A stretch of DNA of 64,000 bases, taken from Halarchaeum grantii. GTDB taxonomy: Archaea > Halobacteriota > Halobacteria > Halobacteriales > Halobacteriaceae. The notes under the pieces were generated by a model that was not told the DNA's origin, searched no databases, and saw only the letters and a program-made list of their open reading frames with translations. Position 1 is the stretch's first letter; each line of letters opens with the position of its first letter. Made by a program: the position numbers and the translations under genes. Shown one piece after another: positions 5,148-36,281 of this stretch. The stretch is taken from the NCBI RefSeq assembly GCF_014647455.2, contig NZ_BMPF01000003.1, positions 62,001 to 126,000 on the forward strand, written 5' to 3'.

Positions 5148-7070
5148 ATGTCTGAGCAGCGAAAGCCGTTGTCGATCGGGAGTGTCGAGATCGAGGATGA
5201 CTTCTGGCGACAGCGCCGCGAAGTCAACCGCGAGAAGACGATCGAGTACCAGTATCAACAGCTTCGAGAGTCCGGGACGCTGGAAAACTTCCGGCGCGCC
5301 AGCGAGGGCGAGAGCGGTGGTCACAACGGCATGTGGTTCCAGGACTCGGACGCCTACAAGTGGCTGGAGGCGGCGAGCTACGTGCTGGCCACCCGCGACG
5401 ACCCCGAGTTGAGGGAGCGAGTCGAGGAGGTCATCGAGCTGGTGGGGGCGGCCCAAGAGGAGGACGGCTACCTGAACACGTACTTCGCGCTCGAGGAGCC
5501 GGAGAAGCGGTGGACGAACCTGAACATGATGCACGAACTCTACTGCGCGGGCCACCTGATCGAGGCGGCCGTCGCCCACCACCGCGCGACCGGCGAGACG
5601 TCGCTCCTCGCCGTCGCGACCGACCTCGCCGACCACATCGACCGAACGTTCGAGGACGACGTTGATGGCGCGCCGGGGCACCAGGAGATCGAACTCGCGC
5701 TGATGGAGCTCGCCGACGTCACCGACGAGGAGCGCTACCGCGACCTCGCGCAGTACTTCGTCGACATCCGCGGCCACAACGACCGACTCGCCTGGGAGTT
5801 CGCGAACATCGAGGAAATCGCGGGGTACGACCCGGACGACGACGAGGGCGGTATCGCCGGGCAGGCCGTGAACGTGTTCCTCGAGGACGGCGAGTACGAC
5901 GGCAGCTACGCCCAAGCACACGCGCCGCTGCGTGAACAGGAGACCGTCGAAGGCCACTCCGTCCGGGCGATGTACTACTTCGCCGGTGCCACCGACGTCG
6001 CCGTCGAGACGGGCGACGACGACCTCCTCCAGCATCTCGATCTGCTCTGGCGGAACATGACGGAAAAGCGCATGTACGTCACCGGCGGCATCGGGTCCCA
6101 GCACGTCGGCGAGCGGTTCACGACGGACTACGACCTCCCGAACGACACCGCCTACGCCGAGACGTGTGCAGCGATCGGGAGCATCTTTTGGAACCAGCGC
6201 CTGTTCGAGGAGACCGGGGAGTCGAAGTACGTCGACCTCATCGAGCGGCAGTTGTACAACGCCACGCTCGTGGGTGTCTCGCTGGACGGGACGGAGTTCT
6301 TCTACGACAACGTCCTGGAGAGCGACGGCTCCCACGACCGCGAGGGCTGGTTCGAGTGCGCGTGCTGTCCGCCGAACATCGCGCGCCTGATCGCGTCCCT
6401 CGAACGGTATCTCTATGCGGTCGACGACGACGGTCTCTACGTCAACCAGTACGTCAGCGGGACCGCGACGCCGACGATCGACGGGACGACCGCGACGGTG
6501 ACACAGACGACCGACTTCCCTTGGGAGGGCACGGTCGAACTCGACGTGGAGACCCCCGAGGAGGCGGAGTTCGCCGTCAGACTCCGCGTCCCCGAGTGGT
6601 GTACGGACGTGTCCGTCTCCGTGAACGGGACCTCGGTCGCCGTCGACGCGGACGAGGACTACGTCACGCTCGATCGAGTCTGGGACGACGACCGAATCAC
6701 CGCCGAGTTCGAGATGGACGTACAGGTGCTCGAAGCGCATCCGGAGGTGGAAGCCGACAGCGGGCGCGTCGCCTTACAGCGCGGCCCCCTCGTCTACTGC
6801 GTCGAGGGCGTCGATAACGACCGGCCGCTGCATCAGTACGCGATCGACCCGGAGACGGAGTTCGACGTGACGTACCGCGAGGACCTTCTCGACGGGGTCG
6901 CCACCCTGGACGCGACGGCGACCGTCCCCGCGAAGGACGGCTGGGACGGGGAGCTCTATCGGTCGGCCGACGAGACCGACGAGACGACCGCCCCGATCAC
7001 CGCCGTGCCGTACTACGCGTGGAACAACCGGGGGCCGAACCGGATGCAGGTCTGGATCCGGGAGGCGTAG
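5148..7070 (+). CDS. GH127 beta-L-arabinofuranosidase family protein
   Basis: About 640 residues, the usual length of GH127 (formerly DUF1680). This family hydrolyses beta-L-arabinofuranosides with a zinc-bound cysteine nucleophile. The diagnostic residues are present: E338-T-C340 in AYAETCAAIG and C406-C407 in ECACCPPN, the equivalents of the Glu, Cys, Cys, Cys zinc and nucleophile set known from the Bifidobacterium enzyme. An (alpha/alpha)6-barrel fills the first two thirds and beta-sandwich sequence the rest. There is no signal peptide, so it should act in the cytoplasm on imported sugar. Start ATG at 5148; a GTG three bases earlier is also in frame. It is divergent from the importer operon. 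Confidence 0.9.
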   Translation: MSEQRKPLSIGSVEIEDDFWRQRREVNREKTIEYQYQQLRESGTLENFRRASEGESGGHNGMWFQDSDAYKWLEAASYVLATRDDPELRERVEEVIELVGAAQEEDGYLNTYFALEEPEKRWTNLNMMHELYCAGHLIEAAVAHHRATGETSLLAVATDLADHIDRTFEDDVDGAPGHQEIELALMELADVTDEERYRDLAQYFVDIRGHNDRLAWEFANIEEIAGYDPDDDEGGIAGQAVNVFLEDGEYDGSYAQAHAPLREQETVEGHSVRAMYYFAGATDVAVETGDDDLLQHLDLLWRNMTEKRMYVTGGIGSQHVGERFTTDYDLPNDTAYAETCAAIGSIFWNQRLFEETGESKYVDLIERQLYNATLVGVSLDGTEFFYDNVLESDGSHDREGWFECACCPPNIARLIASLERYLYAVDDDGLYVNQYVSGTATPTIDGTTATVTQTTDFPWEGTVELDVETPEEAEFAVRLRVPEWCTDVSVSVNGTSVAVDADEDYVTLDRVWDDDRITAEFEMDVQVLEAHPEVEADSGRVALQRGPLVYCVEGVDNDRPLHQYAIDPETEFDVTYREDLLDGVATLDATATVPAKDGWDGELYRSADETDETTAPITAVPYYAWNNRGPNRMQVWIREA

Positions 7071-33558: not shown

Positions 33559-33574
33559 TTTAGGTCTGCCTAAA
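33559..33574 (+). promoter_or_regulatory. Iron-regulator-type operator TTTAGG-TCTG-CCTAAA
   Basis: Perfect 6-base arms with a 4-base centre, 9-24 bases before the ATG at 33583 and partly overlapping a T-rich TATA-like element (33551-33562). TTAGG...CCTAA operators are characteristic of DtxR/SirR-type metal regulators of haloarchaea. The overlap with the promoter suggests repression. Confidence 0.6.
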
Positions 33575-33582
33575 CAGCGCTA

Positions 33583-33777
33583 ATGACTCCCACGCGCCGG
33601 TCGACACGCACCGAGCACACGGAGGACACCGCAGACCACCCCGACTTCGACGCCGAGCAGACCGACACACCGACCGTCAACTGTCGAGAGGTGCACGGCG
33701 AGCGCCGCGTCTTCACCGAGAGCGGCAACACCGACGGCTGGATCGCCACCGACCACACCGTCGAACTCGAAGAATAG
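33583..33777 (+). CDS. Small acidic protein under an iron-type operator
   Basis: 64 residues: an acidic, Thr-rich N-terminus (TEHTEDTADHPDFDAEQTD) and a more ordered C-terminal part (VNCREVHGERRVFTESGNTDGWIATDHTVELEE in outline) with one cysteine. The ending resembles other tiny haloarchaeal proteins of unknown function. No membrane segment. It ends six bases before the end of the convergent Dps gene. The DtxR-type operator at its promoter is the main clue: it is likely made when iron is low. Confidence 0.65.
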   Translation: MTPTRRSTRTEHTEDTADHPDFDAEQTDTPTVNCREVHGERRVFTESGNTDGWIATDHTVELEE

Positions 33778-33783
33778 CGAGCG

Positions 33784-34341
33784 TCAGTCGCGGCGGACGA
33801 GCGTGTCGTCCGCCAACATCTTCTCCACGTCGTGCGCGTCCACCTCGACCGTCCGGAGGTGCCCGCGCACGAGTTCGAGCGTCGCCTCGTCGCCGAGCTC
33901 GGCGGCGAGTTCGACGTGCTCGCGCATCTGGGCCGCGAGCGTCGCGTACCCCTCGAGGTCGTTCGCGAGCGAATCGCGGAGGCTGTAGACGTCGCCCGCC
34001 TCGATCCCGATCGGCGTGTGCTGGCGGAACCCCATCGGGCCGTTGACGGGGACGCCGCCGAGCGCGTGCACGCGGATCGCGAGGTCGTCCGTCATCTCCG
34101 CGAGGCGGTCCGCCGCGCCTTCGAGGAACTCGACGACCGGGCCGACCTCGGCGCCCTCGAGCGTCCAGTAGTGCTTGCGCACCTGATTGAAGAGGATGTA
34201 GAGGCCGGCGAGGTCCGCGTTCAGCGCCTTGACCAGCCGCTCGGCGGCCGCCGGGTCGATACGGAGGTCGTTTCCGCCGACGGTGCCCCACTCGCGCCGC
34301 AGGGCGTCCTCGCCGGGGTTGCGCAGGTGTGGCGCGCTCAT
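33784..34341 (-). CDS. Dps-like ferritin paralogue lacking most ferroxidase ligands
   Basis: 185 residues of the Dps/ferritin-like four-helix family, third gene of a tandem triplet. Compared with DpsA at 34921-35466, the ferroxidase ligands His51, His63 and Glu82 are replaced by Y58, V70 and I89; only D85 (equal to Asp78) remains. The core pattern is kept: KHYWTLEGAE, LGGVPVNGP and LADDTLV at the end. It probably keeps the shell-forming fold but cannot oxidise iron in the standard way. ATG overlaps the stop of the gene before it by four bases. Confidence 0.85.
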   Translation of the reverse strand: MSAPHLRNPGEDALRREWGTVGGNDLRIDPAAAERLVKALNADLAGLYILFNQVRKHYWTLEGAEVGPVVEFLEGAADRLAEMTDDLAIRVHALGGVPVNGPMGFRQHTPIGIEAGDVYSLRDSLANDLEGYATLAAQMREHVELAAELGDEATLELVRGHLRTVEVDAHDVEKMLADDTLVRRD

Positions 34342-34919
34342 CGCCGCATCGCCTCCGTCGTGACGAGCGTGTCGTCCGCGAGGAACTCCTCGATGTCGTG
34401 GGCGTCGTCCTCGAGGTCTTCGAGGTGCTCGCGGAGGAGTTCGCTCGTCGCCTCGTCGCCGAGGTCGTCCGCGAGCGCGACGTGCTCGCGCATGCTCGCG
34501 ACGAGCGTCGCGTACGCGTCGAGGTCGCCCTCGAGCGACGCGCGCAGGTCGAAGAGGTGTTCGGCCTCGAGGTGGACGGGCGCGTACTCCTGGAGCTGCG
34601 GGGGCGTGCTCGCGGGGACGCCGCCGAGCTGCGTGATGCGCTCGGCGAGGTCGTCGTTGATGGTGCGCGCGCGCTGATAGCCGCGCTTCAGGACGTCCGC
34701 GACGTCCTCGTGCTCGGCGCCCTCCGCCGTCCAGTAGTGCTTGCGCAGGAGGTAGAAGAGGTTGAACGCGCCCGCGTGGTCGGCGTTCAGCGCCCCGACC
34801 AGCCGCTCGGCGTCCGCCCGGTCGATGCGGACGGCGTTCTCCTCCATCGTCCCCCACGCCTGTCGGACGGTCGCGCCCTCGAGGTCGTGGACGAGTCGCC
34901 CGTGCTGTGGACTCGTCAT
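34338..34919 (-). CDS. Dps-like ferritin paralogue with altered ferroxidase site
   Basis: 193 residues, middle gene of the Dps triplet. Aligned with DpsA, H51 and H63 are replaced by Y62 and A74, while the opposite-subunit pair is kept as D89 and E93. The segment KHYWTAEGAEHEDVADVLKR replaces KHHWNVEGAEFNDLHGFLGE. The family length is normal. Could form mixed shells with DpsA, giving half-sites, or have another role. Starts one base after the dpsA stop and overlaps the next gene (ATGA); an operon of three is therefore likely. Confidence 0.85.
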   Translation of the reverse strand: MTSPQHGRLVHDLEGATVRQAWGTMEENAVRIDRADAERLVGALNADHAGAFNLFYLLRKHYWTAEGAEHEDVADVLKRGYQRARTINDDLAERITQLGGVPASTPPQLQEYAPVHLEAEHLFDLRASLEGDLDAYATLVASMREHVALADDLGDEATSELLREHLEDLEDDAHDIEEFLADDTLVTTEAMRR

Positions 34920-34920
34920 C

Positions 34921-35466
34921 TCACTGGGTCGCGCTCTCGAGGACGAGGGTGTCGTCCTCGAGGTAGTGGTCGATCTCGTGAGCGGCGTCCTCGAGGCCCT
35001 CGAGGACGTCGCGGAGGAGCTCGCTCGTCGCGTAGTCCCCGAGGTCCTCCGCGAGGCCGACGTGCTCGCGGACGGACTCGATGACGTCGCCGTACATCTC
35101 GCGGTCGTTCTCGAGCGAGGTGCGGATGTCGTAGACGTCCTCGCCCTCGAACTCGACGGGCGCGCGCTCCTCGAGGGTCGCGGGACCGCTCACGGGGACG
35201 CCGCCGAGGGCTTGGGCGCGCTCGGCGAGGGCGTCCGCCGCGTCCTCCGCCTCCTCGGCCTTCTCGCCGAGGAACCCGTGGAGGTCGTTGAACTCGGCAC
35301 CCTCGACGTTCCAGTGATGCTTGCGAAGCTGGTGGTAGAGAACGTACGACGCGGCGAGGTCGACGTTCAGCGCGTCGACGACCTGCTCTGCCTTCTCCGT
35401 GTCGAGTCGGAGGGCGTTCTCTTCGACGGTACCCGCTTCGCGGCGAATCGTCTTCTGGGTGCTCAT
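34921..35466 (-). CDS. dpsA: DNA protection during starvation protein DpsA
   Basis: 181 residues, very like Halobacterium DpsA in length and in the segments YVLYHQLRKHHWNVEGAEF and IDHYLEDDTLV. Stores iron by oxidising Fe(II) with peroxide inside a 12-subunit shell. The inter-subunit ferroxidase residues are intact: H51, H63, D78 and E82. The internal ATG at 35466 is chosen over one at 35490 because it fits the family start MSTQK and a TATA-like box 26-33 bases upstream. First gene of the dps triplet. Confidence 0.93.
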   Translation of the reverse strand: MSTQKTIRREAGTVEENALRLDTEKAEQVVDALNVDLAASYVLYHQLRKHHWNVEGAEFNDLHGFLGEKAEEAEDAADALAERAQALGGVPVSGPATLEERAPVEFEGEDVYDIRTSLENDREMYGDVIESVREHVGLAEDLGDYATSELLRDVLEGLEDAAHEIDHYLEDDTLVLESATQ

Positions 35467-35491: not shown

Positions 35492-35552
35492 TACTTAAAG
35501 CTTCTTGCATCAGAAACAAAATTTTGTGCTACCTTAATTTCGGTTGGCCTAA
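35492..35552 (-). promoter_or_regulatory. dpsA promoter with two palindromic sites
   Basis: Reading leftward: an imperfect iron-type site TTAGGCCAACCGAA (35539-35552), a perfect 12-base palindrome ACAAAATTTTGT (35516-35527), then the TATA-like TTTAAGTA (35492-35499) before the ATG at 35466. The iron-type site lies about 40 bases upstream of the TATA box, a position that suits activation more than repression. Confidence 0.55.
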
Positions 35553-35639
35553 AACAACCCCCCTCTTCCTCGTAGGGGTCATCATGGCCCGCAGCTGACT
35601 CGACACGCACGCTCGTCTCGTACACTTCGTCCGGCCGCC

Positions 35640-36281
35640 TCAGCTCAACGGAGCCGCCAGCGCCTCCCGGATCGGCGTCTCCCCGCTCAGCACCTCGAAC
35701 GTCAGCCCGTACGTCGCCTCGGCGTCGAGCGCCGCGACCAGCGTCGCCGCGACGTCCGCTCGCGGAATCGTCGCCTCCGACCGGTCGAGATGGCGGCCGA
35801 CCCGGACTCGCCCCGTCCCGTCCGCGTCCGTCAGCGCGCCCGGTCGCAGCACCGTCTCCGTCAGCGCGCTCTCGCGGAGGTACTCGTCCGCTTCGGCCTT
35901 CGCACGCAGGTACTCGCGCAACTCGACCGGGCTCTCCTCCGGCCGGTCGGCGTTGATAGAGGAGAGCATCACGAAGCGCTCGACGCCCACCTCCTCGCAG
36001 GTGTTCACGCAGTTGATCGCGCCGTCCCGGTCGACGCCCCACACGTCCGCCCCGCTGGAGCCGGCGGCGAAGATCAGGGCGTCACAGCCCGCGAGCGCGT
36101 CGCCGAGCTCTCCGGGGGCGGTGACGTCCCCGGCGACCGACTCGGCGCCGAGCGCCTCGATATCGTCGCGATACGCCGCCTCGCGACACATCCCCACCGC
36201 TTCGTGGTCGTCGTGCTCGGCGAGGAGTCGCGTGACGTGCTGTCCGACCTGCCCGTGTGCGCCGGCGACGAGAACGCGCAT
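35640..36281 (-). CDS. NAD(P)-binding protein (atypical SDR / NmrA-like)
   Basis: 213 residues. Rossmann motif VAGAHGQVGQHVTRLLAEHD at the N-terminus, then DALIFAAGSS and FVMLSSINADRPEESP, and YLRAKAEADEYLRESALTETVLRPGAL, all typical of the atypical SDR_a5 group. The active-site YxxxK is shifted (YLRAK), as usual in this group. It may bind NADPH as a sensor or reduce small molecules. Upstream of the dps operon in the same direction, 173 bases from dpsA. Confidence 0.87.
   Translation of the reverse strand: MRVLVAGAHGQVGQHVTRLLAEHDDHEAVGMCREAAYRDDIEALGAESVAGDVTAPGELGDALAGCDALIFAAGSSGADVWGVDRDGAINCVNTCEEVGVERFVMLSSINADRPEESPVELREYLRAKAEADEYLRESALTETVLRPGALTDADGTGRVRVGRHLDRSEATIPRADVAATLVAALDAEATYGLTFEVLSGETPIREALAAPLS

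Follow-up and report, generated by a model that had tools for sequence, protein, structure and literature searches.

Two paralogues of the canonical DpsA of Halarchaeum grantii, which we call DpsB and DpsC, are most likely an obligate, non-catalytic Dps pair whose members assemble with each other and DpsA into a mixed shell within the iron regulon; we give this reading a probability of about 0.55. A preliminary description of this DNA had raised the idea of a heteromeric iron store, which gains strength from the strict pairing of the two genes (50/50 genomes), two natural fusions with different linkers, matched trees and a common iron-regulon promoter. A DpsB-DpsC complex is the best reading of the invariable pairing, the fusions and the matching of the trees; from the common operon, the iron box and the Dps fold, it is likely that such a complex is included in the DpsA shell or works beside it.

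The window analysed here is a stretch of 64,000 nt, positions 62,001-126,000 (forward strand) of contig NZ_BMPF01000003.1 in assembly GCF_014647455.2. The three genes lie in tandem on its minus strand: dpsA (34921-35466, 181 aa), dpsB (34338-34919, 193 aa) and dpsC (33784-34341, 185 aa). Overlapping genes had been proposed for the whole operon; dpsB and dpsC do overlap, by 4 nt (ATGA), but dpsA and dpsB are separated by 1 nt. An SDR-type gene (35640-36281) precedes dpsA. By their ferritin-like four-helix fold and sequence similarity, all three products belong to the Dps miniferritins: each matches PF00210 (E = 1e-31, 8e-20 and 2e-17 for DpsA, DpsB and DpsC), each exceeds the cutoff of 170 bits of the NCBIfam DpsA model NF041388 (294, 194 and 189 bits), and each carries the LxDDTLV C-terminal end reported previously. 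The bacterioferritin model TIGR00754 (cutoff 125.6) gave 21.7 for DpsA and 13.8 for DpsB and did not list DpsC. The closest solved structure for DpsB and DpsC by sequence is DpsA of H. salinarum. The only other ferritin-domain protein of the host genome, encoded on another contig (L002:1477-1929), is a 150-aa protein with an ExxH-type pattern, unlike Dps, and the DpsA of the window is thus the sole canonical DpsA found. The plasmid pCBA1220-01 (603 kb) of Halarchaeum sp. CBA1220 carries a near-identical locus (DpsC 99.5%); its record names all three genes dpsA, so that current annotation masks the pair.

The ferroxidase centre of Dps is intersubunit, and its residues are complete in DpsA (H51, H63, D78 and E82). 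The corresponding residues are Y62, A74, D89 and E93 in DpsB, and Y58, V70, D85 and I89 in DpsC, as the preliminary description had correctly read them. Counted over 50 DpsA, 47 DpsB and 47 DpsC rows, the four positions read HHDE in 50/50 DpsA, and the full set occurs in 0/94 DpsB and DpsC. The second histidine is found in none of these 94 proteins and the first in four, while the aspartate is kept in 93. DpsB reads mainly YADV or YADI, with the glutamate (E93 position) present in 9/47; DpsC reads mainly Y-x-D-I/V/L, with a glutamate in 0/47. By this residue criterion DpsB and DpsC are Dps-fold homologues predicted not to be functional ferroxidase Dps. Half-sites shared between subunits, suggested earlier, do not hold up as a general function, given the missing second histidine, the invariable loss of the glutamate in DpsC and its loss in 38/47 DpsB; sites combining the histidines of DpsA with the Asp and Glu of DpsB would be possible in no more than a few lineages, of which Halarchaeum is one.

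The two paralogues have also acquired residues of their own. DpsA H45 is replaced by Tyr in 47/47 DpsB and by Asn in 47/47 DpsC, the cavity position E74 by Arg in 46/47 DpsB, and E130 by Ala or Val in nearly all DpsB and DpsC. Invariant or nearly so are Y56, R85, H116 and E118 in DpsB, and N52, T84, H108 and E114 in DpsC. Moreover, DpsB and DpsC carry N-terminal motifs that are absent from DpsA (LVR and PHLR, respectively). The three-fold axis residue E154 of H. salinarum DpsA nucleates a 4-iron cluster (PMC12532284); counting along the alignment, E154 corresponds to residue 153 of the window DpsA, and the equivalent position is acidic in 45/50 DpsA, 37/47 DpsB and 17/47 DpsC. Values of dN/dS, given for the nearest relative only because many distant pairs are unreliable (saturation, codon bias), were 0.15 for DpsA, 0.35 for DpsB and 0.27 for DpsC. 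As judged from these sequences, DpsB and DpsC represent divergence into fixed types, not decay. The earlier term "degraded" is misleading, both proteins being old and each having residues fixed in 47/47 sequences. Two further observations concern single positions. A cysteine in the VPVCGPMG loop of DpsC is conserved in most genera (33/44), Halarchaeum having Asn there (N100). At F106 and L158, the DpsA of triplet genomes could be distinguished from single DpsA; we set these aside as triplet-specific changes, as they may reflect merely one clade.

DpsC orthologues were found in 37 genomes of a sample of 392 from the taxonomic order (the order sample). Full searches of five haloarchaeal families found them in 6/26, 6/146, 16/171, 2/18 and 20/125 genomes, that is in 50/486, and the DNA of all 50 loci was read. 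A dpsB lies upstream of dpsC on the same strand in every one of them, and dpsC without dpsB was not seen among the 50. The gap between the two genes is -4 to +6 nt in 46/50 genomes, one of which has a dpsB truncated at the end of its contig; larger gaps occur at locus L065 (361 nt) and at L109 (403 nt), where dpsC has no start. This constant order over 50 genomes is far beyond chance and is not local decay. The search for Dps triplets in other haloarchaea, proposed as a check of the locus, was positive: dpsA directly precedes dpsB-dpsC in 30 genomes, does not in 18 and was left unclassed in two. At least three Dps-type matches occurred in each of the 37 order-sample genomes with dpsC, which implies that a DpsA is present besides DpsB and DpsC. 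No neighbour of dpsB-dpsC other than dpsA was widely common. In two Halogranum genomes the pair is fused into a single reading frame, a natural fusion protein, at L070:5317-6561 (Halogranum rubrum) and on the minus strand of L156; the linkers, acidic or polar, differ (about 43 and 26 aa, respectively). The pairing and the fusions together support two or more distinct, obligate-partner subunits, as far as gene arrangement can indicate. In another Halarchaeum (genome G005, L076, around 6430-7004) dpsB is apparently frameshifted, which could be a sequencing error, with dpsA and dpsC intact. Apparent stop codons within dpsC of one genus (g55) turned out to be normal stops that come two codons early.

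In a tree of 148 proteins, including 47 DpsB and 47 DpsC, DpsB was monophyletic (support 99), as was DpsC (97), and the two together formed a single, long-stemmed clade (100). Thus, as the phylogeny indicates, a single duplication from the DpsA line gave DpsB and DpsC, both without the histidine pair. In the 29 genomes with all three proteins, the evolutionary distances of DpsB and DpsC were strongly correlated (0.958; partial correlation 0.93 given DpsA), and the partial correlations were 0.07 for DpsA-DpsB, given DpsC, and 0.16 for DpsA-DpsC. Part of the agreement between the DpsB and DpsC trees is to be expected of genes that are permanently linked, yet the adjacent DpsA from the same genomes does not follow them. 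The DpsA tree being tied only loosely to those of DpsB and DpsC, and dpsA being non-adjacent in 18/48 classifiable genomes, DpsA may stand outside the shell.

A single-chain model of DpsC adopted the Dps fold (pLDDT 78), with H. salinarum DpsA (1moj) as the best PDB match. In a model of the Halogranum fusion both halves folded (pTM 0.46), but one half had no alignment and the docking of the halves was not fixed; the alignment held DpsB rows only, as MAFFT had stacked DpsB and DpsC rows onto one half. Symmetry allows a prediction, which we do not count as evidence. The rotation group of the Dps 12-mer, T, is of order 12; it contains no order-6 subgroup (index 2), whereas D2 is a subgroup of index 3. 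A two-component 6:6 shell would thus not be fully equivalent, and a three-component 4:4:4 shell with D2 symmetry can be. An ordered shell of this kind, with two homodimers of each protein on the two-fold axes, an A-B-C heterotrimer at every three-fold pore and working ferroxidase sites at 4 of 12 positions, is a rather doubtful arrangement. If it existed, it would be a three-component miniferritin whose composition is genetically fixed.

The operon is preceded by a palindromic box, TTTAGGCCAACCGAAA (35538-35553, minus strand), which starts 87 nt ahead of the start codon of dpsA and follows the pattern TTTNGGNNNNCCNAAA. A TATA-like element, TTTAAG (35494-35499, minus strand), recognized by pattern and distance only, lies about 28 nt before the dpsA ATG, a position that fits a leaderless-type haloarchaeal promoter. 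A second copy of the box, TTTAGGTCTGCCTAAA (33559-33574, plus strand), is situated just past dpsC and before a small convergent ORF (33583-33777, plus strand, 64 aa); related ORFs adjoin dpsC in four loci, and the one on the Halarchaeum sp. CBA1220 plasmid is annotated as "hypothetical protein". Exact matches to TTTNGGNNNNCCNAAA precede 18/30 dpsABC operons and 5/18 operons with dpsBC only. Allowing up to two mismatches, the counts rise to 27/30 and 8/18, where shuffled sequences predict 2.6 and 0.7, although the operons are related and the counts therefore not independent. The box is missing from several dpsBC-only operons, namely those of Natronococcus, Halogranum and family f6. In most genera, dpsBC-only operons included, it lies 18-22 nt upstream of the TATA-like element; the distance is larger in other genera (31 or 38-39 nt).

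The pattern occurs at 14 sites in the H. grantii genome, against none for the reversed pattern used as a control, and at 11-22 sites in nine other haloarchaea (control 0-2). Genes beside the H. grantii sites encode four PF01497 binding-protein lipoproteins, another solute-binding protein and a class-III aminotransferase, which suggests iron uptake and perhaps siderophore synthesis. The box marks what looks like the host iron regulon. Such a palindrome common to iron-uptake genes is what a DtxR-family (Idr/SirR) iron regulon should display, and the candidate DtxR-type assignment is drawn from the form of the palindrome and from the gene neighbours. The DtxR-family regulators Idr and SirR have been linked to haloarchaeal iron homeostasis (PMC11349517). 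At the 14 sites (e.g. at loci L176, L177, L179, L180, L178 and L173) are several ferric-siderophore-type binding lipoproteins, each with its own box, and an NAD(P)-binding PF13460 gene adjoins another iron-type box on contig C8 (L181:2602-3240). At the other sites the box mostly precedes the start codon by 4-40 nt, which would suit a repressor, whereas at dps the box lies upstream of the promoter, which would suit an activator. This activator-like placement agrees with the reported decrease of DpsA in iron-deficient H. salinarum (PMC3600143).

Several other explanations must be weighed against a mixed shell. DpsB and DpsC may form a shell of their own, apart from DpsA, and serve a function other than ferroxidase activity, for example DNA packing, the binding of a different ligand or the storage of another metal. 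The pair without adjacent dpsA in 18 genomes, its fusion in two, the near-zero partial correlations with DpsA, the N-terminal motifs that DpsA lacks and the E74 to Arg change of DpsB all speak for such a shell; yet its regulatory box is that of iron uptake, dpsA is directly upstream in 30 genomes, the Dps-type matches imply a DpsA in all 37 order-sample genomes with dpsC, and a 6:6 shell cannot place all DpsB subunits equivalently, lower-symmetry arrangements being possible. We regard this as the lesser possibility, though one with an appreciable chance of being right. Unlikely, by comparison, is that DpsB and DpsC are separate homo-oligomers with roles of their own, joined in an operon for expression only. 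Streptomyces and cyanobacteria do keep several Dps paralogues that are described as separate proteins (PMC3613396, PMC6675082), and both DpsB and DpsC are modelled to retain the Dps fold, but the strict pairing, the two fusions and the failure to find dpsC without dpsB argue otherwise.

The remaining two explanations concern the lost centre itself. A new metal or redox site in its place would agree with the retention of the old-site aspartate in 93/94 proteins, where the second histidine is gone from all and the first from nearly all, and with the invariant or nearly invariant residues specific to each paralogue; these residues, however, form no His/Glu cluster of known diiron type, and we find the idea quite improbable. 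Least credible is that DpsB and DpsC are decaying duplicates without function: catalytic residues are lost, one dpsB is apparently frameshifted (L076) and one dpsC broken (L109), but the pair is conserved across five families, with residues fixed in 47/47 sequences and the dN/dS values given above.

Dps shells have been described as homo-dodecamers; we found no description of a hetero-dodecameric Dps in the searchable literature. H. salinarum DpsA, which has been called ferritin-like, shares fold and family with the proteins of the locus (PDB 1moj/1tjo; NF041388), the window DpsA being a canonical member; DpsB and DpsC differ from it in lacking the histidine pair and, always in DpsC and mostly in DpsB, the glutamate, and DpsC often lacks the acid that nucleates iron at the three-fold axis. 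The genomes of Nostoc punctiforme and Streptomyces likewise encode several Dps paralogues, of which some have an atypical ferroxidase centre (PMC6675082, PMC3613396), but these are described as separate proteins that keep some centre, whereas the two paralogues described here are centre-less and inseparable. That a catalytic and a silent subunit can build a mixed cage is established for bacterioferritins, in Magnetospirillum gryphiswaldense (Bfr1/Bfr2) and Shewanella oneidensis (SoBfr12), which also have tandem operon paralogues, one of them site-less (PMC6529640, PMC12120770). Bacterioferritins, however, are 24-mer haem proteins with an intrasubunit site and one inactive paralogue, in contrast to a 12-mer-type Dps with an intersubunit site and two inactive paralogues, fused in some species. 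The H and L chains of vertebrate ferritin divide catalytic and non-catalytic tasks in one shell, a division that is proposed here for the Dps trio; vertebrate ferritin is a 24-mer, without an operon, and its division is of unrelated origin.

The mixed shell that we favour would work as follows. DpsB and DpsC would be produced together through coupled translation, and DpsA would be supplied by the same operon or from elsewhere in the genome. Working ferroxidase sites would stay in DpsA dimers, and DpsB and DpsC would occupy the remaining places, as ferritin L chains do in vertebrates. They probably dilute the DpsA sites, so that the subunit ratio would set the oxidation rate, the cavity charge and mineral nucleation. 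The operon belongs to the haloarchaeal iron regulon, and its box, on the upstream side of the core promoter, is well placed for activation at high iron. A conserved, catalytically silent and sometimes fused pair of this kind offers a natural test of whether miniferritins tune iron chemistry through the mixing of subunits, as ferritins and bacterioferritins do.
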